Shown in pieces: positions 3,491 to 33,385 of a DNA stretch of 58,169 nt. Source of the stretch: Nitratireductor sp. ZSWI3 (GTDB lineage Bacteria > Pseudomonadota > Alphaproteobacteria > Rhizobiales > Rhizobiaceae); contig NZ_JANKOF010000022.1 of the NCBI RefSeq assembly GCF_024655565.1, positions 1-58,169 on the forward strand, given 5' to 3'. Positions within the stretch are counted from its first letter, which is position 1, and the number at the start of each line of letters is the position of its first letter. The notes under the pieces are model-generated. The model ran no database searches, had not been told where the DNA came from, and saw nothing but the letters and a program-made list of their open reading frames with translations. The position numbers and the translations under genes are program-made.

Positions 3491-5128
3491 ATGTCAAAAT
3501 CAAAGACGTTTACGCTCTATCTCGCGAAGGTTGAGGTCGAGGAATTTGAACATGTGCTGACGGAAGCGGCGAAAACCCGCGTTAACGCGGGAGACGCGGT
3601 CGTAGCTGACTCTGAGGGGCTGGGCAGTAAAGCAAGGGCTTACATTTTCGACAACGTCCCACGTCCTCCAACATGGCTTTCCGATGTGGGGGAGGTTTTC
3701 GGTGGGCTGCCTGCGATCAAGAACAAGTCGTCATGTGCCGTTGTGGTCTTTGAGCATGCGAAGCGGATATTCGTCACCTCGTTTGCGCATGGCTGGCAGT
3801 ACATTGATGACTCGAAGATCGAAACAGATTTCGGTCTTCGGGTTGCCATTAATTCGCTGAACGACAGCAAGTTGAGGAGGATCGATCGTAGCCATCTGGG
3901 AGAAGCCATAAAGGGCGTTTCCCAGTCAGCTTTTCAAAGGGACCTGCAAGCGTTCGGAATCGACGAAGCGCTCGATCTTGTGCGGCGGATAACGGGGCGG
4001 ACGGATGACGACGACTTTGCCAACAGCCTTGCTGGTTCTACATCACTGAAAATTACGCGCGAAATGACATTGTCGGACTTGGCCGGGATTGCCGAAGAGG
4101 CTCTGACGCGATTCCAGTCGGACGATTACAAAAAGACTGGCTTTCAGATCATCGACAAGGTGCGACCAATCCTCGATCAGACCATGTTGATGACGCTGGA
4201 TGCAAAGGCGGTGGAAATTATCAAGGCCGGGCAAGATAATTTCGAGCTGTCGATGCCTGGGTGGTCGGAAGAGGATGTCGTCTATTTCGGATTCAGCGGC
4301 CTGTATGTCAAAGGACGCTTTCCCGACCTTTTGATGGCGAATTATCGCGCTGAACTTGGCGATAACATTGCCGGTCTGGACGTGAACTCGCTGGTCAAAA
4401 AGCATGGCGTTTTTGCCGAATTCGCCAATGATGCGATGGTGAAGAAGCGCTGGAGCCTAAAAAAGGCACTAATTGGCTCGGTGGTGATCGATGATGGTCT
4501 GTACGCGATCAGCGAAGGGGAATGGTATCGGCTGGATCAGCAGTTCAAGAATGATGTCGATCTCGGATTTCAAGGGCTTGTTAAGGAATGGTCCTCAGCT
4601 CCGTTGAAAATAATCAAAAAGGTATCGGAGGACGGAAAGAAGACAGGTTTCGAGGGCGAGCTTGAATATAACAAACGATGCGCGGTGTCCTACAGCCAGA
4701 TTTGTCTGGATCAGGAAATTCTCCTGGTTCCATCAGTTCCTTACGGGAAATTTGAGGCCTGCGATCTGCTCGACATCGCCAGCAAGCGACTGATACACGT
4801 CAAAAAGAGTTCGCGGCAATCCAGCGTTCTTAGCCACTTCTTCAAGCAGGGTAGCAATTCGGCACGGCTTCTTAAGACATATCCCGAAGCCCGGCAAATT
4901 CTGGTGGAACGGGTGCATGCTCTGACGGACAACGACACTGCGGAGGCACTGAAAGCCAATCTAGGCGACTCTCTCTCCGATTGGGTGATCGAATTCCACA
5001 TCATTGACGCGCCACGCCCGGACGGTTCGTTTACGATCCCATTTTTCAGCCGCATTACGCTCAGGGATGAGGCGCGGACGTTGAAGGGAATGACGTTCGA
5101 TGTGGTGCTCAGGTTCATTCCGACTTGA
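3491..5128 (+). CDS. TIGR04141/DUF6119 family sporadically distributed protein
   Basis: This 545-residue protein matches the family pattern of TIGR04141/DUF6119. Near residue 113 is DFGLRVAINSLND; in the C-terminal third are FEACDLLDIASKRLIHVKK (about residues 418-436), SSVLSHFFKQGSNSARLL, and a closing PFFSRITLRD. The C-D-L-L to H-V-K-K spacing resembles the acidic and lysine positions of a PD-(D/E)XK nuclease fold; that is an inference. Family members are scattered in defence islands and have no settled biochemical role. Base composition is lower in GC than its neighbours, consistent with separate acquisition. It is followed by a 244-nt non-coding gap. Confidence 0.75.
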   Translation: MSKSKTFTLYLAKVEVEEFEHVLTEAAKTRVNAGDAVVADSEGLGSKARAYIFDNVPRPPTWLSDVGEVFGGLPAIKNKSSCAVVVFEHAKRIFVTSFAHGWQYIDDSKIETDFGLRVAINSLNDSKLRRIDRSHLGEAIKGVSQSAFQRDLQAFGIDEALDLVRRITGRTDDDDFANSLAGSTSLKITREMTLSDLAGIAEEALTRFQSDDYKKTGFQIIDKVRPILDQTMLMTLDAKAVEIIKAGQDNFELSMPGWSEEDVVYFGFSGLYVKGRFPDLLMANYRAELGDNIAGLDVNSLVKKHGVFAEFANDAMVKKRWSLKKALIGSVVIDDGLYAISEGEWYRLDQQFKNDVDLGFQGLVKEWSSAPLKIIKKVSEDGKKTGFEGELEYNKRCAVSYSQICLDQEILLVPSVPYGKFEACDLLDIASKRLIHVKKSSRQSSVLSHFFKQGSNSARLLKTYPEARQILVERVHALTDNDTAEALKANLGDSLSDWVIEFHIIDAPRPDGSFTIPFFSRITLRDEARTLKGMTFDVVLRFIPT

Positions 5129-5372
5129 GGCAGATCATGAGAGACACGCAAGCAGATGGGAAAACTGCTTGAGCCGCCGCGCGTCGATGTCGTCATACTC
5201 GCAACGAGCGGACCTTTTCGGCGGATACGGTGGCAGCCATTGGAAAGCAGGCGCAATCAGATCGGGGGCTCGGGATCGATATGTAGCCGGAGAGCCATCT
5301 GGAAATGCTCCTCACGGCGCGCCCGGGGCTGATCGCGGGATTTGGCTTACGTTGAACGAAAAAGGGGCATGA

Positions 5373-5897
5373 ATGAGAAACTGGCTTCGCAAAGGCGGCA
5401 AGGTCACGGCGGAAACGGCGCGGCAGATAACAGGGATCAGCACGCCTCTCGGCGGCGTACAATGGGCCGACCCTGGTCCATCCGAAACCGAACTCGTCCG
5501 GCGCTTCCTCGTCTTTCTCGAAGACCGCCGCGTTCTCTACAATCCCTTCCAGCTTGAAGTGGAAAGCCAAGTCGAGCATTCCATCCACCAAATCCGAGAG
5601 GAATGCACCAAGACGCTGCAAGCGCTGTCTGCGTCTGCGTTCGCCATCGCGCCGATCCGGGCAATCCGCGAAGCCGGGCGTCGGTTCCATGACGACCAGC
5701 TTGAAGAGTTCCCCCATTTCGACGGAGATTGGCCGCGTCGCGGCCTGCCCGGCTTCTTCATGGCTTTGGGCGCTTACCGTGCCACAGTCGGCCATCAGGT
5801 AGCCCTTCTGGCAGGGCGCTACGGGATCGACATTGAGGGAGATCTTGCGTCGATCATACCGGCCCTTGGCGACAGTGCCCCTGATGGTGGAGGCTGA
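5373..5897 (+). CDS. DUF6650 family protein
   Basis: A 174-residue protein with the features I associate with DUF6650. The N-terminal half contains ITGISTPLGGVQW, then FLEDRRVLYNPFQLEVE and a predicted helical stretch rich in R and E. The C-terminal half contains LGAYRATVGHQVALLAGRYG and ends with DIEGDLASIIPAL. No enzymatic motif is apparent and the function is unknown. AAAGGGG lies just upstream of the ATG. It sits between the TIGR04141 gene and the restriction operon, so it may be an accessory of either, but spacing (244 nt before, 150 nt after) suggests its own unit. Confidence 0.6.
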   Translation: MRNWLRKGGKVTAETARQITGISTPLGGVQWADPGPSETELVRRFLVFLEDRRVLYNPFQLEVESQVEHSIHQIREECTKTLQALSASAFAIAPIRAIREAGRRFHDDQLEEFPHFDGDWPRRGLPGFFMALGAYRATVGHQVALLAGRYGIDIEGDLASIIPALGDSAPDGGG

Positions 5898-6010
5898 ACG
5901 GGTCGTGTGTCAACCGACGCGCTCCGGACAAATGGTGAGACATAGTTCTTCTTTTGTTCGATATTTTGCCTTGACCGGCAGGAGATGCGCAGTCATCTTG
6001 AGAATCGGTA

Positions 6011-6027
6011 TGCTGCAGTCTGCAGCA
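6011..6027. promoter_or_regulatory. Perfect palindrome containing two CTGCAG sites (probable operator)
   Basis: TGCTGCAGTCTGCAGCA is a perfect 8+1+8 inverted repeat 20 nt before the start of the ribbon-helix-helix gene. It contains CTGCAG twice (6013-6018 and 6020-6025), the sequence recognised by PstI/BsuBI, the family to which the endonuclease of this operon belongs. It may be the operator of the RHH protein and may also be a methylation target of the operon's own methyltransferase; both roles are inferred. Confidence 0.6.
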
Positions 6028-6047
6028 GTTCATTCAGCGGGATTTCG

Positions 6048-6242
6048 ATGGCCGCAAAGCATCGCGTGACGATCAACCTGATCGAAAGTGAATACGAGGC
6101 GCTCGTAGCTTTGTCGGAAAAGAACCGCGTCTCACTGGCATGGCTTGGCCGCCGCGCGATCAGAGAACTGCTTGATCGGTATCAGGAGGGTCAGGATCAG
6201 TTACCGTTGACCGACCTGCGGGATGAATCGAGAAACGAGTAA
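6048..6242 (+). CDS. Small ribbon-helix-helix DNA-binding protein
   Basis: A 64-residue protein, MAAKHRVTINLIESEYEALV..., with the beta-strand/helix/helix pattern of Arc/CopG-type repressors: a short N-terminal strand (HRVTINL), helix A (ESEYEALVALSEKN) and helix B (SLAWLGRRAIRELLDRY). The ATG at 6048 is preferred because a purine-rich AGCGGGA precedes it and the fold begins right after it. Its TAA overlaps the ATG of the methyltransferase by 1 nt, so it is the first gene of the restriction-SPARSA-Hachiman run. By position it is the likely controller of the operon, with the 17-bp palindrome upstream as a candidate operator. A plain antitoxin-like role is an alternative. Confidence 0.7.
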   Translation: MAAKHRVTINLIESEYEALVALSEKNRVSLAWLGRRAIRELLDRYQEGQDQLPLTDLRDESRNE

Positions 6243-8074
6243 TGCAGCGCACGATCGGGGGAAGCGTGAGCAACAGTGCAGCAGATTATTTGCACGACGA
6301 TCCGGAAGAAAGAGAACGCGCGGCCCGCGCAATTCTGACGGATGGTATTGTCATGGCGCGCGCCCTGGCGGCATCGGTGCCGCCGGAAGAGCGGCTGCCA
6401 ACGGCGCGGGCGCTCGTTTTTGCGACGATCAGTTCCTACTGGTCGCACGCGCAAAAGGAGCGGCCAAAGTCCTGGACCCTTTCTGCCCTCCCTCGTGAGA
6501 TCGACTGCGCCCCGATTTCGGACTCAGCTCTCGCTCTTGCCCATTCCATGGGGTCGGCTGCCGCCGATCTCGACGGGATGGAGGCAAGCTACCTGATTGG
6601 CGTCCTTTATACGGCGATGATGCCGGGAAAAGTCCGGGCTGATTTCGGAGCGTATTATACGCCGCCTGCACTGTGCGAACGCCTTTTGGACATGGCGACC
6701 GAAGCTGGGGTTGACTGGCGGACGGCGAAGGTGCTCGACCCGGCTTGCGGCGGCGGTGCTTTCCTGTCGCCTGTCGCGCGGCGCATGGCGGAGCAACTGA
6801 CCGATTGCGCCCCCGGAATTGCCCTGAAGAACATCGTTGGCAGGCTCAGGGGATTCGAGCTCGATCCATTCGCCGCATGGATGTCGCACGTCTTTCTTGA
6901 GGATGCTCTTGCGCCGCTTTGCATCGCATCCGGCACCAGATTGCCGACGCTCGTGGATGTTTGCGACAGCCTTGAGCGCGAGCCGGAAGGATCGGCGTAT
7001 GATCTCGTCATAGGAAATCCACCATACGGGCGCGTTACTCTGTCCACCGAACTGCGCGAGCGGTTCCGTCGCGGCCTTTTTGGACACGCGAACCTGTACG
7101 GCGTCTTTACCGATCTTGCGCTACGCTTTACCCGCCCCAGCGGGATCGTTGCCTATGTAACGCCGACCAGCTTCCTTGGCGGCGAGTACTTCAAGGCGCT
7201 GCGCGGCCTTCTTGGCCGCGAAGCGCCACCTGTAAGTATCGATTTTATCACCGAACGGCGTGGGGTCTTCGCGGATGTCCTGCAAGAAACGCTGCTGGCA
7301 GCATATCGTCGCGGCGGCGCACCCGATGTCGGCCAGGTCCACTTCCTTTCTCCCACGGCGGACGGCAGGTTTGCAGCGACGGCCGCGGGTTCGTTCAGCC
7401 TGCCTTCCGAACCAGATAATCCCTGGATTGTCCCCCGCCTGAAATCACATTGCAAACTGATCCGAAGCGTTGCCGACAAGCCACATCGCCTAGCCGACTA
7501 TGGCTACAAGGTCAGCACCGGCCCCCTTGTTTGGAATCGCCACAAGAAGAGCCTGCGCGATGCGGGCGGGAAAAACCGCTATCCGCTGATTTGGGCTGAA
7601 TCTGTGCGCGCCGACGGGCGCTTTGAATTCCGCGCCGAAAAGCGGAACCACAAGCCGTTCTTTGAGCCGCGCCCGGAGGAACGATGGGTCGTTACAGATT
7701 TTCCCTGTGTTCTCCTTCAGCGCACAACCGCAAAGGAGCAATCACGCAGGCTGATCGCCGCAGCGCTGCCGAAAAGCTTCATCGATCGGCATGGCGCTGT
7801 GGTTGTCGAAAACCACCTCAACATGATCCGTCCGCTAAACGGCAAACCGGCGGTGTCAGCCGAAGCGCTTTCGGCATTGCTGAATACCGAGATCATCGAC
7901 CAGCTCTTTCGCTGCATTAACGGCAGCGTGGCCGTTTCGGCCTATGAACTCGAAGCGCTGCCGCTGCCTGGCCCGAAGGCGATGATAGCCTTTGAGAATC
8001 TTGTCCTCAGAGGAGCGACACGGCTTGAAATCGAGACGGCTGCGACTGATCTGTTCAAGAAAGCGGGGCGCTGA
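6242..8074 (+). CDS. N6-adenine DNA methyltransferase (BsuBI/PstI-type system)
   Basis: A 610-residue protein that transfers a methyl group from S-adenosylmethionine to adenine in DNA. Visible motifs are FGAYYTPP (135-142), motif I DPACGGGAF (166-174) for SAM binding, and the catalytic NPPYG (259-263) typical of adenine-N6 enzymes. The C-terminal half is a presumed target-recognition region. Pairing with a BsuBI/PstI endonuclease suggests it protects CTGCAG, but specificity cannot be read from sequence. Its start overlaps the RHH stop by 1 nt and its TGA overlaps the endonuclease ATG by 1 nt, giving tight translational coupling. If it methylates CTGCAG, the palindrome at 6011 would also be modified. 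Confidence 0.9.
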   Translation: MQRTIGGSVSNSAADYLHDDPEERERAARAILTDGIVMARALAASVPPEERLPTARALVFATISSYWSHAQKERPKSWTLSALPREIDCAPISDSALALAHSMGSAAADLDGMEASYLIGVLYTAMMPGKVRADFGAYYTPPALCERLLDMATEAGVDWRTAKVLDPACGGGAFLSPVARRMAEQLTDCAPGIALKNIVGRLRGFELDPFAAWMSHVFLEDALAPLCIASGTRLPTLVDVCDSLEREPEGSAYDLVIGNPPYGRVTLSTELRERFRRGLFGHANLYGVFTDLALRFTRPSGIVAYVTPTSFLGGEYFKALRGLLGREAPPVSIDFITERRGVFADVLQETLLAAYRRGGAPDVGQVHFLSPTADGRFAATAAGSFSLPSEPDNPWIVPRLKSHCKLIRSVADKPHRLADYGYKVSTGPLVWNRHKKSLRDAGGKNRYPLIWAESVRADGRFEFRAEKRNHKPFFEPRPEERWVVTDFPCVLLQRTTAKEQSRRLIAAALPKSFIDRHGAVVVENHLNMIRPLNGKPAVSAEALSALLNTEIIDQLFRCINGSVAVSAYELEALPLPGPKAMIAFENLVLRGATRLEIETAATDLFKKAGR

Positions 8075-9156
8075 TGTCGTTGCCGCCGCTGCTGCCTGTC
8101 CCCGACATTCATCAACGCCTCCAGTTGATCTTTCCCGAAGGCAGCCCGAACCGGGCGAACTGCACGTGGGAAATCGCCGCAAAGACCGTTTTCGTGATGC
8201 TTTATGTCGGCGCCGTTGAAGGCGCGGATATCTGGATCAGGCCCGATCAGGTCACCCGAATGACGGACGATCAGGCATCCAAGGCCGACGAAGCCGCGCG
8301 GCACGCCTGGACGAAAGAATCGCTCAAGAGCAGCAAGGGCGAGATTCCCGGCCGCTGGTACGCCGTCAATACCCGTGAATCTATCCGCGACGATACGATC
8401 CGCGCAGGCTTCCTTGCCAATGGCGTCGTCGTTGAACGCGGCGGGCTTCCAACCACTTCTCCTTCACCGCGCTACGCCCTTAAGGGGGATTTTGCGGCGC
8501 TGTTCAATCCCGCGCTCAAGGGAACCAAACTGGACTCCACCATCGCCACCTGGCAGGGCGACAACCTGAATGCGGGCGCGCTTGCCCGCATTACGATGGT
8601 CCGCAAAGGCGCCGTTGCGGGCGGCGACCATATCATGGTGAAGTATCCGAGCGGCGAGACCCGGCGCATGGCGCCAGGACCGAGTTCGGTGATCTCCAAG
8701 GCCGTCATCGAGATATTCGCGCCGCGCTTTCTTGAGCAGCCTGCAGTCATTTTCCTGAGCGAAAGCCGCAACAAGGTTGTCAGCCGGGACGACGATCTCG
8801 CCAAGGCCATCGGCTTGCAGATTCGCGCCGAGAAGAACCTGCCGGACATCGTTCTTGCTGATCTTGGGCCGAAACATCCTCTCCTCGTCTTTATCGAAGT
8901 CGTGGCAACCGACGGCCCGGTAACGCGGGAGCGCAAACAGGCGCTGACCGAACTTGCGCAGAATGCCGGCTTCCCCGCCGAACACGTCGTCTTTGCCACT
9001 GCCTTCCTCGACCGCAGCGATTCCGCCTTCAAAAAGGCCGTTGATTCCCTCGCGTGGGGCGCATTCGTCTGGTTCGCATCCGAACCGGAGCACCTCATCC
9101 ATCTCCATGAGGGGGAAGCCTCCAGCGTGAGAACCCTGACGCAATGGCGGAGTTGA
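8074..9156 (+). CDS. BsuBI/PstI-family restriction endonuclease
   Basis: A 360-residue type II endonuclease. The N-terminal half corresponds to the BsuBI/PstI helical domain. The C-terminal catalytic half begins around PGPSSVISKAVIEIFAPRFL and contains a PD-(D/E)XK-like core: LPDIV (256-260, D258) and FIEVVATDGPV (273-283, E275). Characterised family members cut CTGCA/G; family-level specificity is the basis for expecting CTGCAG here. CTGCAG sites occur throughout the window (for example at 8741 inside this gene), so the DNA is not depleted of them. The last 13 nt overlap the start of the Sir2-APAZ gene, an unusual physical link between a restriction enzyme and an Argonaute system. Confidence 0.88.
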   Translation: MSLPPLLPVPDIHQRLQLIFPEGSPNRANCTWEIAAKTVFVMLYVGAVEGADIWIRPDQVTRMTDDQASKADEAARHAWTKESLKSSKGEIPGRWYAVNTRESIRDDTIRAGFLANGVVVERGGLPTTSPSPRYALKGDFAALFNPALKGTKLDSTIATWQGDNLNAGALARITMVRKGAVAGGDHIMVKYPSGETRRMAPGPSSVISKAVIEIFAPRFLEQPAVIFLSESRNKVVSRDDDLAKAIGLQIRAEKNLPDIVLADLGPKHPLLVFIEVVATDGPVTRERKQALTELAQNAGFPAEHVVFATAFLDRSDSAFKKAVDSLAWGAFVWFASEPEHLIHLHEGEASSVRTLTQWRS

Positions 9157-10919
9157 TCGATCAGGCAGAACTCACCGGTCTCTTTTGCGCGAGACCTCAA
9201 AATTTCGCCTGGTTCCTCGGCGCGGGGACATCAAGGTCGGCGGGGCTGCCCACGGCCACAGACGTTATCTGGGATTTGAAGCGGCGCCACTATTGCCGCG
9301 AAGAAAACCAGGAGATTGCCCGGCAAGATGTCCAGAACGAAGCGGTTCAGGCCCGCATCCAAGCTTTCATGGACGCGCGGGGATTCCCCGAGCAATGGGC
9401 CGACGACGAATATGCGACCTACTTTGAAAAGATTTTCGGCACCGACAGGGAGCGGCAGCGGCGCTATCTGAAAGGGATGCTGTCCGAGGACCGGGTGGCC
9501 CTCTCGGTCGGCAACCGCGTGCTCGGCGCGCTGATCTCTTCCGGGCTCACGCGCATCGTGTTCAGCACCAATTTCGACACCGTTGTCGAAAAAGGAGTCG
9601 CCGAAGTCTCCGGCGGTTCGCTTTCGGCCTTTCATCTTGAGGGTTCATCTGCCGCAAACCAGGCACTGAACAACGAAGAGTTCCCAATCTATTGTAAGCT
9701 GCACGGCGATTTTCGCTATGACAGCATCAAGAACCTCCCGGCCGACCTTGCGCGCCAGAACGACGCGCTTGCTGCCTGCATGGTGAATGCCGGCAGGCGC
9801 TTCGGCTTTATCATCGCGGGCTATAGCGGACGCGACGCCAGCATTATGAAGCTGCTGCGCACTGTGCTTGATGGCGATAACGCTTTCCCGCACGGCCTGT
9901 TCTGGACCGGCCTGAAAGGAAGCCCAATCCCGCCTCCGGTGAACCAACTTCTGGAGGAGGCAGCGGCGAAAGGGGTCAACGCGCGTTATGCCGAGATCGA
10001 GACATTTGACACGCTCATGCTTCGGCTTTGGCGGAACATCGACAACAAACCCGCCGACCTCAATGCGAAGGTGCAGAAAACCGGCTCCGCTTCGGTGAGC
10101 ATTCCGCTGCCGGTGACCGGTCAGGCCAAGCCGCTTCTGCGTTTCAATGCGCTACCAATCCGGGAACTTCCGCAGCGCTGCCTTTCCCTGTCATTCAAGA
10201 CGCCAAAGGAATGGGCTGATTTGAGGGAAGCGCGGCACGACACGGAGGGGCAACTGATCTTCACCAGGGCGGATGCCGTCTGGTGCTGGGGCGAGAGGGA
10301 AGCCGTCACCGCGCAATTCGGCGACGATCTTGTCTCCGTGTCGGAAGCCGACCTTCCGTCTGATTTCACTGAGGCTGAAAATCTGCACGTAAAGGGGTTT
10401 CTGGAAGAAGCGATCTGCGCGGCAATTGCGCGTGATCGCCCCGTCCTGTCCCGCACTACCCGCTCATCGGCCTTTCTTATCGCTGATCCGCATACAGAAG
10501 ATGCGGGCGCACTGGGACCGCTGTCTCGCATCGTCGGCAAGACCTCCGGGATTGTCCCCGGCTTGTTTTCGGCAGTCACCGACGAACATCCGCAAGCTGA
10601 ACAGGTGCGCTGGTCCGAAGCAGCGCGCATTTCGATCGACATGAAGAACGGCGCCGTGTGGCTTCTGATTGATCCGGACATATGGATCTGGCCCGCCAGA
10701 GCTCGTCAGGATGCAGTCGAGTTCCTCGACCAGCGCCGCCGGGACCGCTTGAATAGCAAGTACAACGAACTTTTGAGCGCATGGGTGCAGATCATCCTTG
10801 GCACCGACCAAAGGGGTGTTGATGTCCGGCTTGCAGCGTTCGACGGTTCTGAAGACGCCGGTAATCCCGCTTTCCTCATAGGAAGCCGCACGGCCTTTGC
10901 GCGGAGGCTCGGGAGATGA
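9144..10919 (+). CDS. Sir2-APAZ effector of a short-Argonaute (SPARSA) system
   Basis: A 591-residue protein. The N-terminal Sir2 domain has the NAD-binding [12 protein letters not shown] (26-37), STNFD (141-145) with the conserved Asn, KLHGD (185-189) with the catalytic-type His, and GYSGRD (226-231). The C-terminal half (about 320-591) is in the position of the APAZ region that pairs with short Argonautes and stands in for their N/PAZ parts. In known SPARSA systems the Sir2 domain destroys NAD+ when the guide-loaded Argonaute partner senses invading plasmid or phage DNA, killing or arresting the cell. The start lies inside the 3' end of the endonuclease gene (13-nt overlap) and the end overlaps the Argonaute gene by 4 nt (ATGA). 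Confidence 0.9.
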
Positions 10920-12328
10920 GCGGCGGCACCGAGGAATTGTCCGGCTATACCAAGCTGTCCGAACCCGTTTTGATGTTCGCTGAAAACGGCAGGCACAAGC
11001 ATCCTTTGCTCGGGTTGCTGAACCACGGTCCCTACGGCCTCAAACTCGGCGCGCCGACTACACTCCGTTTTGCCCTCGTTGCACCTGAGCGCGATATGGG
11101 GAAGCTGCGCGGCCTTGTCGGGGAACTGGACAAGCCGGCCGCGCCCAAAGAGGCCAAGAACTACTATCCGGAATATCCGGGCTTCACGCAGGCATTCCGC
11201 ATTCCGATAGCGCCGCTCGATGAGCGCGTGCAGATCGTGCTACCGGAAAGTCTCGATGCGCACGCGCAGGCGGGTGCGGAACACGATCTGGCGCGGGAAC
11301 TGTTCCAGTGCGTCTCGCAATTGAAGGCCGCGCGGGGAAGCTTCGATCTCGCACTGATCTATCTGCCGCCTCACTGGTCCTCCTGCTTCGAGGGCGAGAA
11401 TTTCAATTTCCACGACTTCCTGAAGGCCTACTGCGCGCCCTCGAACATCCCGGTCCAGATCGTGCGGGAGTCCAGTTTCGAGCGTACTTGCCGCGCGAAT
11501 GTCATGTGGGGATTAAGTGTCGCCGCTTTTGCCAAAGCCGGCGGCGTGCCCTGGAAACTGACCGGCCTGAGCCAGGACGAAGCCTTTGTGGGTATCAGCT
11601 ACGCTATCAAAACCGACCGTGGTGGAAATTTGTACAGTACATGCTGCAGCCAGGTCTTTGATCCCGACGGCACCGGCTTCCGGTTCGTTGCCTATGATGC
11701 CCGCGAGTTCACACAAGACGGCAGGCGCAACCCGTACCTGTCCTACTACGAGATGCAATCGGTCCTCTCACGGAGCCTGGAAATCTATCAGAGCGGGCAT
11801 TTTGGCCAAACGCCGAGGAAGATTACGGTTCACAAGAATACGCCGTTCAAGGATGAGGAGATTCTGGGCGCCCTCGACAGCTTCCGGGATGGCACTGAAG
11901 TCGAACTCGTCCAGATCGTAAAGAACGTCTCCTGGAAAGCTGTCCGGTTCGACGCGAAGACGCCGCCGCAGCCGTACAACTATCCCGTCGAACGAGGCAC
12001 CTACGTCCCGATCGAAGGAAACGAAGCGTTGTTATGGACGCAAGGGAGCGTCATTGGCGTACATGTCGAGAATCCGAACTGGAATGTTTACAAGGAAGGG
12101 GTGTTAAAGCCGACGCCATCTCCCATATTGCTTCGCCGCTTTACCGGCGCTGGCGGCTGGCACGAAACCTGCGCGGCCGTTCTTGGCCTGACGAAAATGG
12201 ATTGGAATAACAATACACTATACAAGAAGCTGCCGGTTACGTTAGTTTACTCAAAATATTTTGCCGATATTGTACAACAGAATCCAAACATCGTTGATAC
12301 AGTCTATGATTTCAGGAATTTTATGTAG
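10916..12328 (+). CDS. Short prokaryotic Argonaute (MID-PIWI) of SPARSA
   Basis: A 470-residue protein, the length of a short pAgo with only MID and PIWI domains. PIWI-like features include a mid-protein stretch [20 protein letters not shown], the [14 protein letters not shown] strand-loop, and a conserved end: [12 protein letters not shown], then [15 protein letters not shown] and a final FRNFM aromatic tail. Short pAgos lack the DEDX slicer residues as a family and act as guide-directed sensors; I did not assign each residue. It overlaps the Sir2-APAZ stop by 4 nt, consistent with a 1:1 complex. The last ~120 nt are AT-richer than the rest. A 64-nt gap separates it from hamA, the largest gap inside the run. 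Confidence 0.87.
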
Positions 12329-12392
12329 ATGGTACGGTCCGGAAAGCGAGAAAGTTTGAACTGCTGCTGTCGCTGCGACCGCGGGGGGCGGG

Positions 12393-13361
12393 ATGCACAC
12401 TTGTCCACCACCGCATGACGCTCTTGAAGAATGGCTGGAGGGCCACCCTTCAACCAACGGCAAGTTCGGCCACCTTCTGCTCTTGCAGAAGGAGATCGAC
12501 CGCGAAGCTCTATGCCAGGCTCTACTTCCCTATTTTGAATCAGCCCACCTTGATGCGCGGGAGGTCTTCCATGCCGATATCGGCATTGACCTCCACCCCG
12601 ACGCAGGTGATGGCGGCGACGCACCCATAGAGTACCCCGGCTGTCTTCCCGGCACGACGCGGAAGGGCCTGTTTGGCGAAGTGATGGCCGGGCTTATCAC
12701 CGAGGGCTACGAACTAGTTGGCGCGCATGACTGGTGTGTGCCGATTTTCCTGTTCCGCTATCACGAGGATGCGCGGAACTACCTTTTCGCGCTGGCCCGC
12801 AACCCGGAAAGGAAGCGCCAGACAATCGGACGCCTTGGTTCTGATTTCATTGGCTTGCTCCTAGACGAGGATGGCGCCGTTGTAAGATTCATCGCGGGTG
12901 AGGCCAAATGGCGGAAGACGCTGACGCAGTCGGTAGTGGATTCGCTGATGCACGGAAAAAAGATAGACGATCCTGCCGGCGGAGGAGGGAAAGTCCATTC
13001 TGGTAAAGGCGTCTGGAACGACGTGAATAATGACCCGCCCGTCCCAATTGGTGTGCGCCAACTTATGAGGCTTTTGCAGGAGCACGATCCCGACGGCTAC
13101 GATGCGGCAATATTGTCGATGGAACGGGCTTTGGTCCTAAATGACCCCGAGCCGCTTCCCAGGACCGACCTTATCATCATCGTCGGCAACGGCGCTGCCA
13201 CGCGCGAAAAAATGAACTGCCTTCTGCCATTCAAGGAAATGCCCGACGACTATACCGCAGGACACGATCTGCAACTGGTGGAAGTCATCCTCGAAGACGG
13301 CGAGGAATTGATCGACGCTCTCTATGAGAGCCTTTGGTCTGATGGAGGCGGTGATGCCTGA
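12393..13361 (+). CDS. hamA: HamA, Hachiman nuclease subunit (DUF1837)
   Basis: A 322-residue DUF1837 protein. The diagnostic region is GSDFIGLLL (149-157, D151) followed by IAGEAKWR (167-174, E170 and K172), forming the D...ExK core of a PD-(D/E)XK nuclease; an upstream FGEV (94-97) supplies another acidic residue. In Hachiman, HamA is the DNA-degrading effector held in check by the HamB helicase and released on DNA damage or invasion. The ATG follows a G-rich GGGGGGCGGG. The downstream helicase start lies within the last 8 nt, and its Shine-Dalgarno GGAGG lies inside this gene. Confidence 0.87.
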   Translation: MHTCPPPHDALEEWLEGHPSTNGKFGHLLLLQKEIDREALCQALLPYFESAHLDAREVFHADIGIDLHPDAGDGGDAPIEYPGCLPGTTRKGLFGEVMAGLITEGYELVGAHDWCVPIFLFRYHEDARNYLFALARNPERKRQTIGRLGSDFIGLLLDEDGAVVRFIAGEAKWRKTLTQSVVDSLMHGKKIDDPAGGGGKVHSGKGVWNDVNNDPPVPIGVRQLMRLLQEHDPDGYDAAILSMERALVLNDPEPLPRTDLIIIVGNGAATREKMNCLLPFKEMPDDYTAGHDLQLVEVILEDGEELIDALYESLWSDGGGDA

Positions 13362-16300
13362 ACTGGACCAGGATCGGCTGGAAATCGCTGAACAGCTTCG
13401 ACGCGAGGTCGCGCCGGAGGACACGCTAACACCCATTCAGGCGCGATCGTTCGTGCGGGGATTGCAGACCGCATGGGAAGTGCCGACCATTCAATGGGGC
13501 AATGCGGAATCCCGAAGTCAACTCTATGATGCGCGGCGCCTGCTCGATGCCGCCGCCATCTTCCGCAAGGTCGAAGGTGAAGCTTCTGCGAATGCCATCC
13601 TGTGCTACCGCCGTGCCGGCGAATTGCTGGAATGGCTCACACGCGCCCATGACGACCTCGAAACTTTTGTGCCGCTGGAACTGCTTGCGGCTGCATCATA
13701 CCAGTTGGGCGGCTTGCCGGCGATGTCGGCTGCGCTGCTTGGGCAGGTGCGCCTCGACAGCGCCGGAAGGCGACTCTATGCACGGTTCCTGCGCGCCGAC
13801 TTTGATGGCGTAATCCGCACCGTTACCGCGTTCTGGCGCGATCATCTGGACATCACCGACCGGGAGGCCCCCGGACGCCTGCTCGGTGATGACGGTGAGG
13901 ACAAGGTTAGCTGGTATTTCACGGTCGAACTGATCCGTGCGCTCGGCGCCATTGCTGACGCCTTGCGCCGCGGTGATGACCAGCGCCTTGACCGCGCGCT
14001 CGCCAAGCTATCCGCACTCGACAAGATGGCCGTGCGCACCCTGGGTGACGATGCGTCTGCCCTTGTGGCGCTCTTGTATCAGGTTGCGATTACATATCGG
14101 GACGCAAGCATCTATACGCCGGTTCGCGCACTTGGCGCTCTTAATCCTGAACGTGCGCCACGCCTTGAGGCCTTTGCCCGAACCCAGTTCAGCCGCAAGC
14201 GCGGCATTCTCTGGACCTCGCAGCGGCACGGCATAGCGCGGCTTCTCGAAGAATCATCATTTGCCTTATGCACGCCCACCGGCTCCGGGAAGACGCTGGT
14301 TGCCAATCTCGCGCTCGTCAAGGAGCTGCTTCTGCGGGAAGAGCAAGATCCCGCGCCGCTCGCCTTGTATCTGGTTCCCTCAAGAGCGCTGGCAGGCGAA
14401 GTGGAGGCAAAGCTGACGGGGGAACTTGGCCGCGACCTCATCGTGACAGGCCTCTATGGCGGTTCGGATTGGGGGGTGACCGACTATTGGCTTGATGCAG
14501 ACAGGCCAACTGTCCTCATAGCGACGGTCGAGAAGGCCGATGCCCTAATGCGCTATCTCGGCCCGCTATTGTTGCGCCGCCTGCGGCTCTTAATCGTCGA
14601 TGAAGCCCACCAGGTCGTTCCTGAGGATAATGAACGGACGCAAGCGGATTTCGCAGAACATTCCAACCGCTCAATTCGGCTTGAAGGATTTGTGTCACGC
14701 CTGCTGGCTCAATCTCCGGATATCGTCAGGATTGCGCTGACAGCCGTGGCCGGCGGAGCCGCGTCTCCGGTTGCACGCTGGATCGAGGGTCGTGAGGATG
14801 CGCAGGCAGTCGGAACGCGCTACCGGAGCACAAGGCAGATTGTCGGCGTTTTCGAGACGGCATATGGCAGTTCCGGCCGGATGCTGCTTGAACTAATGAA
14901 CGGGCGGCCGTTGTTTGTGCGTGGACGCGACGAACCCGTTTATCTGCGCCTCGGCACGCCGCCGATGCCTGACCTATCGGCGGCGATGCGCCACAGCATT
15001 TATCGTTTCAATGAACTGGACGTTCTGTGGACTGCGCTGCATCTCATCGACGATGACCGTCGCATCCTCATTTCGGTTGCCCAGCAGCCGGAAAAGACCA
15101 TGGGGTGGTACAAGGACGCTTTGGAACTCGAAAGCTGGCAGGACGCGCTGACCTTTGAACCTCCCGAGGACGACGAGGGACGCGCCCGTTTTGATGAGAC
15201 AAGAGCGGCCTGCATAGACTATTGCGGTGAGGATTCCTACGAACTCGCACTGCTCGACCAGGGCATTGCTACTAACCACGGGCAGATGCCACAGCGCCTC
15301 AGAAGGCTTATGACCGACCTCATCGACCGGGGAATTTGCCCGATCACGGTGGCCACCGCAACTTTGACAGAAGGCGTCAATCTTCCATTCGACATCATCT
15401 TTCTCACGGCGTTGAAACGCCGGACATACGATCCGGTGAACAACACCCCCGTTGAAACGCCGATTTCCGCGGCTGAATTCCGCAATCTGTCGGGCAGGGC
15501 CGGACGGCCGGGCGCGAGCAATGGTATGGAAGGCATCACACTGGTTGCCATACCCAGGCGGCCTGCATCAACTGCGCCTAAACAGATTCCCTTGCAGCGC
15601 CGCCAGATTCGCGCCCTTCGCGATGATTACGACGCGCTTAGGCGCAGGCTCCTCGCGGAAGAACTTGAGCAGGCCGAAGTCGATAGCCCGCTGGCATTGC
15701 TGCTGCAGAGCATTGCAGATCGCGTGCGGGACTTGCTTGGATTGCAGGGCGACGCCTTTCTGGAATGGCTTGAAGCCGCAATCCCTCCGGATATCAGCGA
15801 TGAGGCGGGCCGTGCCGAAACCTCCGAAGAAAGCCGGCTCGCCGATAGCGTGGACGAACTCGACGGGATACTCCTGAGCGCCATCGAAGAAATCGAGCGC
15901 CTGCGGGCAGAAGGGCTGGAAGGAGCGGCAGCCGAAGACGCATTTATGCAGCTTTGGCGCAGGACTTTCTCCGCTTACGCAGCAGCCCAGGAAGAATGGC
16001 TGGAGCGTGCATTCGTACGCCGTGGACGCGCCATCATCGACGAAATTTATCCCGATGCGGAGGAACGCAGCCGGTTATACCAATATGGTTTCACGCCGTA
16101 TGTCGGGCGGCGGTTTGAAGCAATCGCACCGGATATGAGGGCCGTGATCGAGGCGGCGCAGGACTATGGCAGCGCAACCGCAGAAGACCGTCTCGCCGTC
16201 TTCGTCGCGCTTGGCGAACTCATTGCCGCCGATCGTGGGTACGGCTTTCGTGTTCGAGCCACCGAAACCGATCGGACGCTCCTCGAAAACTGGCAAGGCG

Positions 16301-16971
16301 TGCTGGGATGGTGGGTTCTGGCACCGGAGGCAGCCAGTCCCGATCCGAGCCGACTGCGCGCATGGCAGCGCTTTGTCGCTGATAACATTGAATTTCGGTT
16401 AGGCGTAGCAGTGGGCGCCGTAGTGGCGCGGGCTTGGTCGGACGGTGCCGGTGATCCGCTGACTGTACCCTCTCTGGATGCTTGGCGTGAAACGACAGGA
16501 CTGCCGTGGTTTGGCTTTTGGGCGCGAGAATTGCTGCGATGGGGAACACTCGACCCGTTCGTCGCCTTCGCTCTCTCGCAAGGCTTGGCGCAGACCAGAG
16601 AAGCGGCTGCCGCCCGGCGGGAGGAGTATGAAACATGGCTGGAGGCAGAATATGACAATCTCGACGCCGAGGATTTTATCGATCCGCAGCTCTTCCTTGC
16701 CTGGGAACGCAGCCTGCCCCAGCCGGAGCGCGCGGCAGGCCGCGGAAACAGTGTCCCAGTGGAATTGACCGGCACGACAGGTGAGCGCGGCCTGTACCGT
16801 GTTGTCCCCGTGGTTGCGGACGACGCCATCAACTGGATCGATGCGGCCGGTTATGTTCTTGCTCGATCAAAACGTGATGACTCGCCGTTTCGCGGCCGGT
16901 TCCATCGTCAGGATTTCGAGCTCCATACCGACGTCAGGCGGCCTTTTGTGGACAGGACATTCGCCGGGTGA
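13354..16971 (+). CDS. hamB: HamB, Hachiman superfamily 2 helicase
   Basis: A 1205-residue helicase from the ATG at 13354, which has GGAGG 5 nt upstream; an in-frame ATG at 13324 would add 10 residues but lacks that signal. Motifs: Walker A TPTGSGKT (307-314), DEAH (416-419), a motif III-like LTAVAGG near 465, ATLTEGVNLPF near 670, and motif VI LSGRAGRPG near 711, which is the Ski2-like arrangement. About 300 residues precede the motor and about 500 follow. In Hachiman the helicase surveys DNA and controls HamA. It is the last gene of the run: 67 nt further lies the end of the convergent Fic gene. Confidence 0.88.
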   Translation: MPELDQDRLEIAEQLRREVAPEDTLTPIQARSFVRGLQTAWEVPTIQWGNAESRSQLYDARRLLDAAAIFRKVEGEASANAILCYRRAGELLEWLTRAHDDLETFVPLELLAAASYQLGGLPAMSAALLGQVRLDSAGRRLYARFLRADFDGVIRTVTAFWRDHLDITDREAPGRLLGDDGEDKVSWYFTVELIRALGAIADALRRGDDQRLDRALAKLSALDKMAVRTLGDDASALVALLYQVAITYRDASIYTPVRALGALNPERAPRLEAFARTQFSRKRGILWTSQRHGIARLLEESSFALCTPTGSGKTLVANLALVKELLLREEQDPAPLALYLVPSRALAGEVEAKLTGELGRDLIVTGLYGGSDWGVTDYWLDADRPTVLIATVEKADALMRYLGPLLLRRLRLLIVDEAHQVVPEDNERTQADFAEHSNRSIRLEGFVSRLLAQSPDIVRIALTAVAGGAASPVARWIEGREDAQAVGTRYRSTRQIVGVFETAYGSSGRMLLELMNGRPLFVRGRDEPVYLRLGTPPMPDLSAAMRHSIYRFNELDVLWTALHLIDDDRRILISVAQQPEKTMGWYKDALELESWQDALTFEPPEDDEGRARFDETRAACIDYCGEDSYELALLDQGIATNHGQMPQRLRRLMTDLIDRGICPITVATATLTEGVNLPFDIIFLTALKRRTYDPVNNTPVETPISAAEFRNLSGRAGRPGASNGMEGITLVAIPRRPASTAPKQIPLQRRQIRALRDDYDALRRRLLAEELEQAEVDSPLALLLQSIADRVRDLLGLQGDAFLEWLEAAIPPDISDEAGRAETSEESRLADSVDELDGILLSAIEEIERLRAEGLEGAAAEDAFMQLWRRTFSAYAAAQEEWLERAFVRRGRAIIDEIYPDAEERSRLYQYGFTPYVGRRFEAIAPDMRAVIEAAQDYGSATAEDRLAVFVALGELIAADRGYGFRVRATETDRTLLENWQGVLGWWVLAPEAASPDPSRLRAWQRFVADNIEFRLGVAVGAVVARAWSDGAGDPLTVPSLDAWRETTGLPWFGFWARELLRWGTLDPFVAFALSQGLAQTREAAAARREEYETWLEAEYDNLDAEDFIDPQLFLAWERSLPQPERAAGRGNSVPVELTGTTGERGLYRVVPVVADDAINWIDAAGYVLARSKRDDSPFRGRFHRQDFELHTDVRRPFVDRTFAG

Positions 16972-17038
16972 GGTTGCAGGTTCTCGATCGGCCCGAGCCA
17001 CGATGTTTGGTTCCGAACAAAGCACTGGCTGAGGCTCA

Positions 17039-18595
17039 CTATTCTGCACTGTATTTGCGGTCGAATTCTTCAAAAGCGTCCACGATGATCGCCTCGATCT
17101 GCTGAACCTCGTTGTCCCGCAGTTTCTCAAACTCGCCGGTGCGGCGTCGTTTGCTGAGCGATCCACCATTTTGGCGGATGTGCATGATCAGATCCTGCGC
17201 CATGCGGTCGGGCATCTCGACCAGGTTCATGATGGCGGTCAGCGCCTGATCGCGGCATTTGAGGTAGTCGATCTCGCGCGGCAAGTCGATCTCGACGGTT
17301 CGCTGCACGCAGCTATAGAGGAACTCGGCCTCCTCGGTGCAATCGAAATAGCGATAGAGGTCCGCCGTATCGTTGGTGACTTCGACATTGTGGTTAGGCA
17401 ACGCGCGCCAGTCGATGAACTCCATCAAGGGGCCGGAATGCCCCTTCAGGGTCGTGGCATAGTCGTCGATCCGATCCAGCATGACTGCCGAGACAGGAAA
17501 CACCATGCCGGGCGGGGTATATTTGCGCTCGGCGAGCACATGATGGATGAGACAGCGATGCAGGCGGCCATTGCCGTCGGCCAGTGGGTGAACGTAGACG
17601 AACCCGAATGCGATCGTAGCGGCTTGCAGGACCGGATCGACGTCCGAGGTTCGCAGTCTATTGTTGCATTCATTGAGGCCGGTCATGATGTCGGGAACAT
17701 CCTGAGGGCTGGCACCGATGAACTCGGGCAGCGGATCATGGTTATGATCCCGCTCACCCAGAAACACGCCCTCGCTGCGGTATCCGATCTCGGTGAACCG
17801 GTCATCACCGATCAGGATGCGGTGCAGGCGATAGATCTCGGTCTGGTTGAGCGGACGCTTGCCGGCCTCAAGAACAGCGCGTCCCCAACGCTCGAGCCGA
17901 CTGGCTGGCGCACGTTCTCCTTCGATCTCGAAGCTCGCGCGGCTGTCCGCCAGCAGGAGAAAGCTTGCAGCTCGGGAAACGATGTGAGCGCCCGTTCGCC
18001 CTATCGTCTCCTGCGCCTTCCTGGAAAGATCGAGGGCCAGAAATGCTTCCAGTTTTTCTGTGCGCCGGATGATCGGACAGAATTCGCCCGTGCCAAGCAG
18101 ATTGTTGCGCACCCGATGGCGCAGGGACAGAGATGCGGGGCCGGTGAAATAGGCTTCGGGATCGAGTGCGTCGACCGCGGTGACGGTAGGGGCGTCATCG
18201 ATATCGAGCCGCTTGCCGCTTAGGGTTTCGTAAAAGAACCATACGCGCCGCGTCACCGCACCGGTCGGTGTCCGCTGGATAAAGCCTATGAGATCCTGTT
18301 CTGGCAACGCATCAAGGATGCGCTTGAGCACCAGAAGATCGATCGGCTCATGGCGTAGGGCAAAGCCGAGATGCCCATCCAGGGTGTCTTCTGGTTGATA
18401 CCGTTTATCATAGACCTCCCAGATGCCCTCCCCCCGGCGATTGCCGCGTACATGCCGTTCAGAGATGCAGGCGGGGTTTCTCGCGGGCGCCTTCACGTCG
18501 AGCGCGTGGACAAGTGCCGCCCACCCCGCGAGCCGCGCGCCCTCTGGAACGGATTCGTTCTGAAAATGGGCAGGCTTCCCGATATCCAGCTTCAT
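17039..18595 (-). CDS. Fic-domain protein (class II, N-terminal inhibitory motif)
   Basis: A 518-residue protein with the Fic catalytic loop HPLADGNGRLHR (336-347), fitting HxFx(D/E)GNGRxxR with Leu in place of Phe. An inhibitory S/TxxxE(G/N) motif, SFEIEG (221-226), lies before the Fic core, which defines class II Fic proteins. Such enzymes transfer AMP or another nucleotide moiety to a target hydroxyl. The C-terminal ~100 residues are helical with a basic segment (SLSKRRRTG) and may bind DNA. It converges on hamB and is divergent from the gene at 18773. The substrate is unknown; a toxin-like or defence role is suggested only by location. Confidence 0.85.
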   Translation of the reverse strand: MKLDIGKPAHFQNESVPEGARLAGWAALVHALDVKAPARNPACISERHVRGNRRGEGIWEVYDKRYQPEDTLDGHLGFALRHEPIDLLVLKRILDALPEQDLIGFIQRTPTGAVTRRVWFFYETLSGKRLDIDDAPTVTAVDALDPEAYFTGPASLSLRHRVRNNLLGTGEFCPIIRRTEKLEAFLALDLSRKAQETIGRTGAHIVSRAASFLLLADSRASFEIEGERAPASRLERWGRAVLEAGKRPLNQTEIYRLHRILIGDDRFTEIGYRSEGVFLGERDHNHDPLPEFIGASPQDVPDIMTGLNECNNRLRTSDVDPVLQAATIAFGFVYVHPLADGNGRLHRCLIHHVLAERKYTPPGMVFPVSAVMLDRIDDYATTLKGHSGPLMEFIDWRALPNHNVEVTNDTADLYRYFDCTEEAEFLYSCVQRTVEIDLPREIDYLKCRDQALTAIMNLVEMPDRMAQDLIMHIRQNGGSLSKRRRTGEFEKLRDNEVQQIEAIIVDAFEEFDRKYSAE

Positions 18596-18772
18596 GTCGG
18601 CTTTCTCTCATGGCCGTCGAAAGGCGATCATGTGATCGCGCATCTGTCGAAATGAATTTACAGTCCAAGGATTGAAAATCAATCACCAATGTCGAAAATC
18701 GCTCATCAAGAGACATAGGTGTCGATAGCAAGACGAAGGGTGCCCGGCGCCATTGACCAGAAAGGAGCCAAA

Positions 18773-20134
18773 ATGCCGTCAAAAGAGCTCTCGCGCGAGG
18801 AACTGTTCGCACTGGTTTGGGAGAAGCCGACGCAAGAGGTGGCGAAGGAACTTGGCGTTTCGGATGTGGCAATTGCCAAGCTGTGCGCTCGTCTTCAGGT
18901 TCCCAAACCGCCGCGAGGCTACTGGGCCAGGGTTCGGTCCGGGCAGATCCCGAAACGTCCGCCGCTTGCGGCGTTCCGGGAAGAGGTTGATCGCAAACGC
19001 CGGGAAACCGCACGTGCGAAGGTAGTTGGAACACTGTCGAAACTGCAGCAGCAATTCTACGAGGCTGCGCTCAAAGAGTTGGCCGATCGTGGTGTGGATG
19101 TGGGTGAGACTGAGACGCGCGGGGCCAGGCTGCCCGAACTCGACCCCGATCTCGCCGCGCAGATCCTGCTCCTCATTCAAAACCGCGGGCATTACTGGGT
19201 CAAAGAGGGACAAGTCGCCGCCAACTGGAGCCATTCAGTTCAGGCCAGCGCGGCCAGTCTGGTTGGAAAGCTCCTGCCACTCGCGCGACCACAGCTCCCG
19301 ATGTTCGAGAGCGATCGCGAACCTGGGCAATACACGGCAAATGGCCCTTCGGTCTTCGTACGCCTGACAGCACATCTGCAGGAACGGATTGCCTCTCTGG
19401 TGCGCATAGTCCGGGACCAGAAACTGGACCATATTGTCATGCCGCTGATGGCCGCGGATCACGCGTGGTCGGCCCGGCATCTTTATGCGCCAGCAGCCCA
19501 TGTTTTCCTGGACAGTACCTTGTGTGTTTCGGCCACCGAAGTCTGGGTGGAAAGTGCCCGGCGAGCGTGGCGCGACGAGGATCCGCCTGAGCGGGTCGCC
19601 ACCGGCAGACTCAAGCTGCGCGATATCATGCCGATCGATTTCATGCCGGTTCGGGAAATCGAGCTGCCTCCGGGCGTTTCCCGAGCCACTGTGAAACCTT
19701 ACGGAGAGCGCCTGAAGGGATTGCTCGAGGCTGATCGCGTATACGAGATTCTATCGCACGCCACATACGCGATCGAACGCCAAGTCCCAGACGACAAGCT
19801 CTTGCTCGCGGACCGAATATGGTTCGGAACCGGACGCCCGTTTCGGTCGGCCCGGGAAGCTTTGGCGCGTCTCGAAGATGAACTGGCCGACTGGGAGACG
19901 GAGTTGGAAGCCGAGCGTTCCGCCCTGGCCCAATCCATACTGGGCATTGAAGTCGGGGACATCGTGGCAGCGGAAAATCGCGGGCGCTTCCTACGCCTTT
20001 CCGTCACGGGAATTACCCTCTACGCGAACGACAAGGGCGCCACCTTCATCATCAGCGGTACGCGGTTTCGCAAAGATGGCACATTGGGGAAGTTGCAGGA
20101 CACGTTGAGCCTGCATTTTGAGGGTGACAAGTGA
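18773..20134 (+). CDS. Uncharacterised protein with N-terminal helix-turn-helix
   Basis: A 453-residue protein of unknown function. Residues 3-60 form a recognisable HTH-like module: SREELFALVWEKPTQEVAKE, then LGVSDVAIAKLCARLQVPKP and PRGYWARVRSGQIPKRPP. That module is common in otherwise unrelated bacterial proteins. The rest is helical, including a charged coiled-coil-like segment (AREALARLEDELADWETELE). The ATG at 18773 has AAGGAG 6 nt upstream; an in-frame start at 18719 has none. It is transcribed away from the Fic gene across a 177-nt shared intergenic region, so it could regulate or antagonise Fic, but no direct evidence is visible. Confidence 0.6.
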   Translation: MPSKELSREELFALVWEKPTQEVAKELGVSDVAIAKLCARLQVPKPPRGYWARVRSGQIPKRPPLAAFREEVDRKRRETARAKVVGTLSKLQQQFYEAALKELADRGVDVGETETRGARLPELDPDLAAQILLLIQNRGHYWVKEGQVAANWSHSVQASAASLVGKLLPLARPQLPMFESDREPGQYTANGPSVFVRLTAHLQERIASLVRIVRDQKLDHIVMPLMAADHAWSARHLYAPAAHVFLDSTLCVSATEVWVESARRAWRDEDPPERVATGRLKLRDIMPIDFMPVREIELPPGVSRATVKPYGERLKGLLEADRVYEILSHATYAIERQVPDDKLLLADRIWFGTGRPFRSAREALARLEDELADWETELEAERSALAQSILGIEVGDIVAAENRGRFLRLSVTGITLYANDKGATFIISGTRFRKDGTLGKLQDTLSLHFEGDK

Positions 20135-22935: not shown

Positions 22936-23178
22936 TCAGCTCTCTGGCGGTGACATTCCGAGTCCTTCGTAGATGGTCCTCAGCTTCGCCCAAGCCGCAT
23001 CGAGCATGGGCTTCGCAGCGTCTCGGCTGTAGCTGTAGTCATCGTTGGTCGCGTTGGTTCGAACAACGAGACACCACTCGCCCTTCGGGATGACGTGGGA
23101 ACTGTTCCTTCGGCATTTGCGCTGGCGCTGCGCCTGCTCGATCCTCACGTCGATCAGAATGTCCCTGACTTTAGCCAT
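22936..23178 (-). CDS. Small basic protein of the helicase cluster
   Basis: An 80-residue protein. The segment RKCRRNSSHVIPKGEWCLVVR resembles half of a treble-clef zinc site (C...H...C), but the second pair of ligands is not obvious. The N-terminal part, ILIDVRIEQAQRQRKCRRN, is strongly basic. It overlaps the helicase stop by 8 nt and precedes the 155-residue gene by 11 nt, so it is translationally coupled to both. Function unknown; a nucleic-acid-binding accessory of the helicase is a reasonable inference. Confidence 0.6.
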   Translation of the reverse strand: MAKVRDILIDVRIEQAQRQRKCRRNSSHVIPKGEWCLVVRTNATNDDYSYSRDAAKPMLDAAWAKLRTIYEGLGMSPPES

Positions 23179-28809: not shown

Positions 28810-28880
28810 AGTAGCTCTCCCTCGGGTCAATTCCTGTCGGCTTCGCGCTCACCCCGGTAGGACGAGGCGGCGCACGCAAA

Positions 28881-33204: not shown

Positions 33205-33233
33205 TGCGATCAAGAATTGGCACGGCCAAGCGC

Positions 33234-33262
33234 ACGTCGGAACGACGTATAAGCGCGCCCTC
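33234..33262. other. Origin of transfer (oriT) with Ti/RSF1010-type nic region
   Basis: A perfect inverted repeat ACGTCG/CGACGT (33234-33239 and 33243-33248) directly abuts TATAAGCGCGCCCT. That matches the Ti and RSF1010 nic pattern (TAA-x-x-GCGCCCT). The element is flanked by a longer perfect repeat, TTGGCACGGCC (33217-33227) and GGCCGTGCCAA (33289-33299). It lies between divergent traA and traC, as in Ti plasmids. The exact nick position is inferred by analogy. Confidence 0.75.
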
Positions 33263-33385
33263 CCTCGAAAAAATCTCGGGATGGACCGGGCCGTGCCAAA
33301 CCGTCCCGGCAACATAGAAGCCTTCAGGCAGGTGCTCAACTATCATCTCTGCATCGACAACTTTCCGGAACGATTGGAGGCAACG

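Follow-up and report, generated by a model that had tools for sequence, protein, structure and literature searches.

In the draft genome of Nitratireductor sp. ZSWI3 (5.21 Mb), seven adjoining genes at positions 6048-16971 of contig NZ_JANKOF010000022.1 probably make up a single transcription unit, a stack of three defence modules that are each autonomous and horizontally mobile, namely a type II restriction-modification (R-M) system with a likely ribbon-helix-helix (RHH) repressor, a pair of genes for a short prokaryotic Argonaute (pAgo) and its Sir2-APAZ partner (SPARSA), and a divergent Hachiman (HamAB) pair. We hold this reading with moderate confidence; the combination appears to be a set of known systems stacked once, not a single new machine. 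The window referred to throughout is the whole contig, 58,169 bases in length. If the block does yield one transcript, three unrelated immune mechanisms would stand under one regulator, two of them able to kill or stall the host, which raises the testable question of whether dangerous defence modules take a place behind restriction operons because the regulation there can be borrowed.

Open reading frame (ORF) and profile analysis placed all seven genes, each of them open, on the + strand in the order RHH, N6-adenine methyltransferase (MTase), BsuBI/PstI-family restriction endonuclease (REase), Sir2-APAZ, short pAgo, divergent HamA and HamB. An earlier sequence-only reading had described seven co-directional genes of three systems here, and this description stands, the families and key motifs having been found and the key catalytic motifs being present in the MTase, Sir2, HamA and HamB proteins. 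The junction lengths that it gave are also those read from the sequence: the RHH and MTase genes have one nucleotide (nt) in common (TAATG at 6242), as do the MTase and REase genes (TGATG at 8074), the REase and Sir2 genes overlap by 13 nt (9144-9156), Sir2 and pAgo by 4 nt (10916-10919), and HamA and HamB by 8 nt (13354-13361) when the ATG at 13354 is taken as the HamB start, the longest ORF beginning at 13324; between pAgo and HamA there is a gap of 64 nt (12329-12392). To call the systems 'fused', as was done then, overstates the case, the genes overlapping and the proteins staying separate, and the RHH frame has no start codon at 6011, where the block was said to begin; that position is the first base of a palindrome, and the gene starts at 6048.

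Because of the 13-nt overlap between the REase and Sir2 genes, SPARSA has no intergenic promoter space. Promoters and terminators were scanned for over positions 4500-19000 against shuffled sequence, promoters by the sigma-70-type consensus only, and neither signal was in excess: two promoter-like sites were found against a shuffle mean of 4.2, neither of them inside 6011-16971, and 18 terminator-like sites against 15.4 +/- 3.8. No intergenic site of either kind was detected at the junctions of the block, the 64-nt gap on the + strand included. These results bear on chance packing in a defence island, under which SPARSA and HamAB would use promoters of their own inside the preceding genes and share nothing. 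Other defence-like genes around the block, such as the Fic-domain gene of PDC-S24 type at 17039-18595, fit such packing, as do the many contexts into which HamAB relatives bring their own upstream regions and the lack of an overall strand bias beside SPARSA (30 vs 29 of 59 loci); six same-strand junctions that consist of five overlaps and one 64-nt gap, with no promoter-like site within the block, argue in the other direction, and we regard chance packing as possible though unlikely.

The triple was found nowhere else in the loci examined, which points to the stacking of autonomous mobile modules. The SPARSA loci compared were the best 80 of at least 439 confirmed relatives, on genome contigs at whose ends many of the loci stop; the R-M sample (n=17) comprised 10 whole-genome loci and 7 opened among the 151 plasmid records that matched the REase, and the HamAB sample (n=14) was drawn from the 26 plasmid records that matched HamA. 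The triple order occurs in 0/80, 0/17 and 0/14 of these, respectively. R-M was present without SPARSA or HamAB in 17/17 relatives, HamAB without SPARSA or window-type R-M in 14/14, and SPARSA without a window-type MTase or REase in 80/80 loci. Nor was the triple found by any other search run, these being whole-genome searches for pAgo, MTase and HamA, each over 385 members of the class, a plasmid tblastn with pAgo, HamA, HamB and REase, and a search of viral contigs; the phage collection and metagenomes lay outside their scope. Megablast of the 10.9-kb block gave no match in 72,556 plasmids, and in a DNA search of 60 related genomes the only long match was to the MTase-REase part, in genome G411. 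The sequence-only reading had named a search for the same order in other genomes among its checks and the lack of any recurrence among its grounds for refutation; the nearest examined kin of each module carry neither other module, the triple does not recur in what was searched, and the order is not supported as a conserved unit. What survives of the shared-operon interpretation is the tight co-directional string, the missing SPARSA promoter space and a likely operator at 6011-6027, and what survives of recurrence is an R-M-type gene before SPARSA in 8/59 loci, with other R-M types, and SPARSA followed by a different HamAB once (locus L071).

The R-M module encodes an Eco57I-like N6-adenine MTase of 610 aa (6242-8074, + strand; Pfam Eco57I E 3e-12; PADLOC MTase_II E 1.9e-240; motifs DPACGGG and NPPY) and a BsuBI/PstI-family type II REase of 360 aa (8074-9156, + strand; Pfam BsuBI_PstI_RE E 1.9e-49; PADLOC REase_II E 3.7e-139), which also has the N-terminal helix-turn-helix (HTH) domain of that family (Pfam E 7.5e-35) and whose nearest solved relative is SdaI (PDB 2ixs, E 8.5e-16). 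The BsuBI/PstI REase domains adjoin a gene for an MTase of the cognate type, as is characteristic of the family. Like other BsuBI/PstI-type II R-M systems, the window pair has touching MTase and REase genes with the same domains, in the MTase-REase order of the 17 relatives; it differs in the RHH gene that overlaps the MTase gene and in a palindrome with twin CTGCAG sites in front. CTGCAG, which we take to be the BsuBI and PstI target, is the predicted core for the window pair, and SdaI presumably cuts CCTGCAGG, a sequence that the twin CTGCAG sites do not form. CTGCAG is not avoided in the window, where 16 sites were found against 18.1 expected.

The likely operon repressor is a 64-aa RHH protein (6048-6242, + strand) whose ATG lies next to the RHH domain, the mechanical ORF running from 5985; it scores 21.2 bits with Pfam RHH_1 (E 2.7e-4) against a cut-off of 20.5, and the 85-aa ORF scores 20.3. 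The candidate operator, a palindrome of 8+1+8 nt at 6011-6027 (TGCTGCAG-T-CTGCAGCA) with CTGCAG sites at 6013 and 6020, ends 20 nt before the RHH start codon, and a weak and speculative candidate promoter, below the scan threshold, can be placed at 5971-5999 on the + strand (TTGACC, 17 nt, CATCTT; 8/12 consensus matches). CTGCAGNCTGCAG is found at 3 places in the 5.21-Mb genome and a control pattern with its letters backwards at 1. Inverted repeats with 8-nt arms and a loop of at most 8 nt number 22 in the 58-kb window, and with some 0.07 of them expected per 171 bases the palindrome is unusual, not extreme. One RHH-like gene, below Pfam cut-offs, was found upstream among the 17 R-M relatives, in L037, where it overlaps the reading frame of an MTase of the same kind and is preceded by another palindrome, without CTGCAG. 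RHH control of BsuBI/PstI-type R-M may therefore not be unique to the window, the twin site being unique among the loci examined. Control by a C protein was considered and rejected, the small gene encoding an RHH protein before the MTase gene, not an HTH activator before the REase gene.

Co-regulation of the three systems from one operator, and with it layered immunity, is an inference. A stronger form of the idea is an integrated operon selected as a unit, in which one RHH operator would tune modification, NAD depletion and DNA degradation. The common leader with its operator-like palindrome and two independent SPARSA-HamAB adjacencies (the window and L071) would suit it; with a triple not met again in the searches and an RHH gene that is not a fixed part of R-M, present in similar form in just 1/17 relatives, it appears quite unlikely. 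The palindrome at 6011-6027 might also be a methylation-reading operator that sets transcription of R-M, SPARSA and Hachiman, with REase-made ends triggering a HamAB relay and NAD depletion as a parallel last step. Two predicted MTase target sites would then lie within the RHH repressor's binding site, and methylation would be low in a newly entered host or while the enzyme is drawn off by infecting DNA. Twin CTGCAG sites are absent from the 450 nt upstream (248 nt in L171) in 17/17 R-M relatives, which counts against the operator reading, a single CTGCAG being present upstream in 2/17, and we consider the methylation proposal a long shot. Cognate sites within the promoter of an R-M system can govern its expression through methylation, as the accessible text of PMC3874152 cites for CfrBI and LlaDII; the window differs from those promoters in that its two predicted sites form an operator-like palindrome of an operon that holds two further systems. 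The first gene is again a repressor, binding palindromes in its own promoter, in the RptR-regulated R-M defence island (PMC12255303, available in part), and the window resembles it in this position of the repressor gene; RptR differs in being alpha-helical, in its type I R-M system and in binding TAGCTA, and the available part of that paper describes no RHH protein.

The SPARSA module consists of a Sir2-APAZ NADase subunit of 591 aa (9144-10919, + strand; PDB 8in8_B E 1.4e-142; PADLOC Aga_SIR2 E 1.3e-195), whose gene overlaps that of a short (MID-PIWI) pAgo of 470 aa (10916-12328, + strand; PDB 8in8_C E 1.6e-170; PADLOC pAgo_I E 8.9e-191), an arrangement that defines SPARSA. N143 and H187 of Sir2-APAZ align with N142 and H186 of 8in8_B, the GsSPARSA dyad, whose catalytic role and the NADase activity of SPARSA are reported in the accessible text of PMC10781750. 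Like the Geobacter sulfurreducens SPARSA (8in8), the window has two overlapping genes, Sir2-APAZ then pAgo, both matched full-length and with the catalytic Asn and His kept; unlike it, the window SPARSA overlaps an upstream type II endonuclease gene. The nearest pAgo among the best 80 loci, that of L040 (84%), has an SLFN/AlbA_2 gene downstream and its upstream side lost at a contig end, that of L041 (79%) has its nearest upstream gene on the opposite strand, 566 nt off, and a 71% SPARSA relative on a Bradyrhizobium plasmid (L019) has neither an R-M nor a HamAB partner.

Restriction or DISARM genes of unrelated systems lie co-directional just upstream of SPARSA in 8/59 other loci, a count that keeps loci with more than 3 kb upstream and omits L090 and L091 (pAgo identical to L089) and L077 (no Sir2 match). 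They adjoin SPARSA directly on the same strand in L070 (4-nt overlap) and in L083, L047, L098, L044, L100 and L074 (0 to 92 nt, by ORF coordinates); L068 has a type I HsdR gene ahead of it, with a metallopeptidase gene in between. Complete M-S-R units of overlapping genes stand before SPARSA in L044 and L047, the DISARM DrmMI gene ends directly before Sir2-APAZ in L083 (4073-11226), and in L098 (4545-15800) the HsdS and HsdR genes of a type I R-M operon enclose SPARSA together with a TIR gene. The pAgos of L044 and L047 are sisters behind unrelated type I systems, their HsdM proteins being 24% identical and their HsdR proteins matching only at E 0.005. A pAgo tree, from which 8 of the 80 loci were dropped (L054, L067, L071, L076, L077, L085, L090, L091), requires 8 changes for 9 carriers, at least 6 of them forced by starred branches; shuffled labels gave 8.6 changes on average, 164/500 being as low, so that the carriers are spread over the tree with neither clustering nor over-dispersion. 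These changes, together with the unrelated partners of L044 and L047, indicate that SPARSA has come to lie behind restriction genes on several occasions. Upstream HsdS-like hits in L094 and L099 (75-85 bits) were judged too weak and not used, and an N6_Mtase family search of 50 SPARSA genomes was left out of the counts, its contig numbers not being securely tied to loci.

Since the position behind R-M genes recurs in 8/59 other loci, shared R-M transcription plausibly keeps SPARSA there, rather than a physical partnership with the R-M system of the window. A closer tie would exist if SPARSA were a guard of R-M, restrained by the restriction complex or triggered on its failure, as PrrC is for type I R-M, a precedent found in the accessible parts of PMC2610378 and PMC3874168. 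The recurrent tight position behind R-M genes, including the placement between HsdS and HsdR in L098, would agree with a guard, as does the precedent itself; the partners, however, are unrelated (several type I kinds, DISARM, type II) even for sister SPARSAs, and most sampled SPARSA loci are without an adjoining R-M gene, so that a specific SPARSA-R-M physical contact is unlikely and the guard proposal highly improbable. Several points also weigh against our preferred reading of one transcription unit. The gene nearest to SPARSA on its upstream side favours neither strand (same in 30, opposite in 29 of the 59 loci), and R-M neighbours stand at 8 on the same strand against 3 on the opposite one (L051, L052, L093; binomial 0.11, not significant), so the recurrence of R-M genes could be defence-island clutter. 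Neighbour typing was partial, PADLOC having been applied to 16/30 same-strand and 7/29 opposite-strand nearest genes and to some second-nearest ones. HamAB, moreover, could be served by its own promoter, weak or not of the sigma-70 type, within the gap or the last part of the pAgo gene.

Other genes recur beside SPARSA. Hma-type methyltransferases follow it downstream on its own strand in L075, L101, L104 and L109; AbiJ_NTD4 / PDC-S32 genes lie close downstream in two unrelated loci (L096 5235-6020 and L104 11905-12975), and IrrE-like peptidase genes resembling capP directly upstream in L081 (4303-5130) and L120 (4573-5358).

The Hachiman module pairs a divergent HamA nuclease of 322 aa (12393-13361, + strand) with a HamB helicase of 1205 aa (13354-16971, + strand; PADLOC HamB1 E 1.6e-52; PDB 8vx9_B E 6.3e-19; GSGKT, DEAH, SGRAGRPG). 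HamA matches its family weakly, the best PADLOC HamA hit (E 1.1e-4) spanning 36 residues; there was no match in Pfam, NCBIfam or a single-sequence PDB search, and a profile of 14 relatives reached the PDB HamA 8vx9_A at E 0.22 only. What favours calling it a divergent HamA is that a clear HamB accompanies it and that the D-GEXK motif (D151, G169-E170-A171-K172) is invariant in 14 aligned sequences. HamB is Ski2-like, as Hachiman requires, and HamA and HamB occur together in all 14 HamAB relatives. The layout is that of Hachiman (HamAB, PDB 8vx9; PMC12278908, in its accessible part), a nuclease gene, tentatively DUF1837-like in the window, followed by an overlapping SF2 helicase gene with D-GEXK and DEAH; the difference is a HamA barely detectable by existing models, from a plasmid-borne alphaproteobacterial branch. 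It is 49-63% identical to 13 plasmid relatives, and HamA matches were found in 26 plasmid records and in only 1/384 other genomes of the class (33% identity). In two Sphingomonas plasmids HamAB relatives follow a VapC toxin gene at a distance of 8-9 nt, so the window is not alone in having one module settled behind another. In L071, from Bradyrhizobium niftali, a HamA-like gene (27%) and HamB (36%, PADLOC HamB) come directly after SPARSA, pAgo and HamB each being broken over two frames; 7 kb on, and about 3 kb past the first HamB copy, pieces of a second HamB (18503-19274, 56-71% to the window HamB) lie beside transposase-like frames.

On the reading of one transcription unit, RNA would start just before the RHH gene, and an RHH dimer binding the palindrome at 6011-6027 would limit expression. 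The gene overlaps may couple translation from RHH through pAgo, SPARSA would be carried by R-M transcription, and HamAB would probably be reached by read-through over 64 nt. The R-M pair is predicted to methylate host sites and cut unmodified DNA, with CTGCAG as the core. By analogy with known systems, guide-loaded SPARSA would degrade NAD on finding matching DNA, and HamAB, like known Hachiman, would sense damaged DNA and degrade DNA; activation of HamAB by damaged DNA is described in the accessible text of PMC12278908.

The stacking of defence modules as such is already known, and the combination of R-M, SPARSA and Hachiman is a variant of it; we found no published description of the three in one operon, in a search largely without subscription literature. 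Proximity of pAgo and R-M genes is also in print, HsdS and type III-like nuclease orthogroups being listed among pAgo operons, with no conserved operon structure, in Ryazansky et al. 2018 (PMC6299218, seen in part). That work, in its accessible part, does not report that SPARSA landed repeatedly and independently behind complete type I systems or DISARM. An R-M system followed by SPARSA is also met in distant bacteria, with other partners, which makes shared control worth testing; having settled repeatedly and independently behind unrelated R-M systems, SPARSA offers several loci for asking whether regulation is borrowed.

Upstream of the operon, the window carries a DUF6119 / TIGR04141 gene of a sporadically distributed family (3491-5128, + strand), with a DUF6650 gene (5373-5897) between the two. 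The Fic-domain gene on the far side (- strand) is convergent with HamB and matches PADLOC candidate system PDC-S24 at E 4.1e-189. Two large serine recombinases and a MobA/MobL relaxase-helicase (27142-28830, 30211-33339 and 55637-57406, all on the - strand) make the contig look like part of a mobile element. The window also holds a 684-aa protein in which a MerR-type HTH is joined to a ResIII/Helicase_C helicase (23174-25225, - strand), and an open frame of 2859 aa at 42899-51478 on the + strand.

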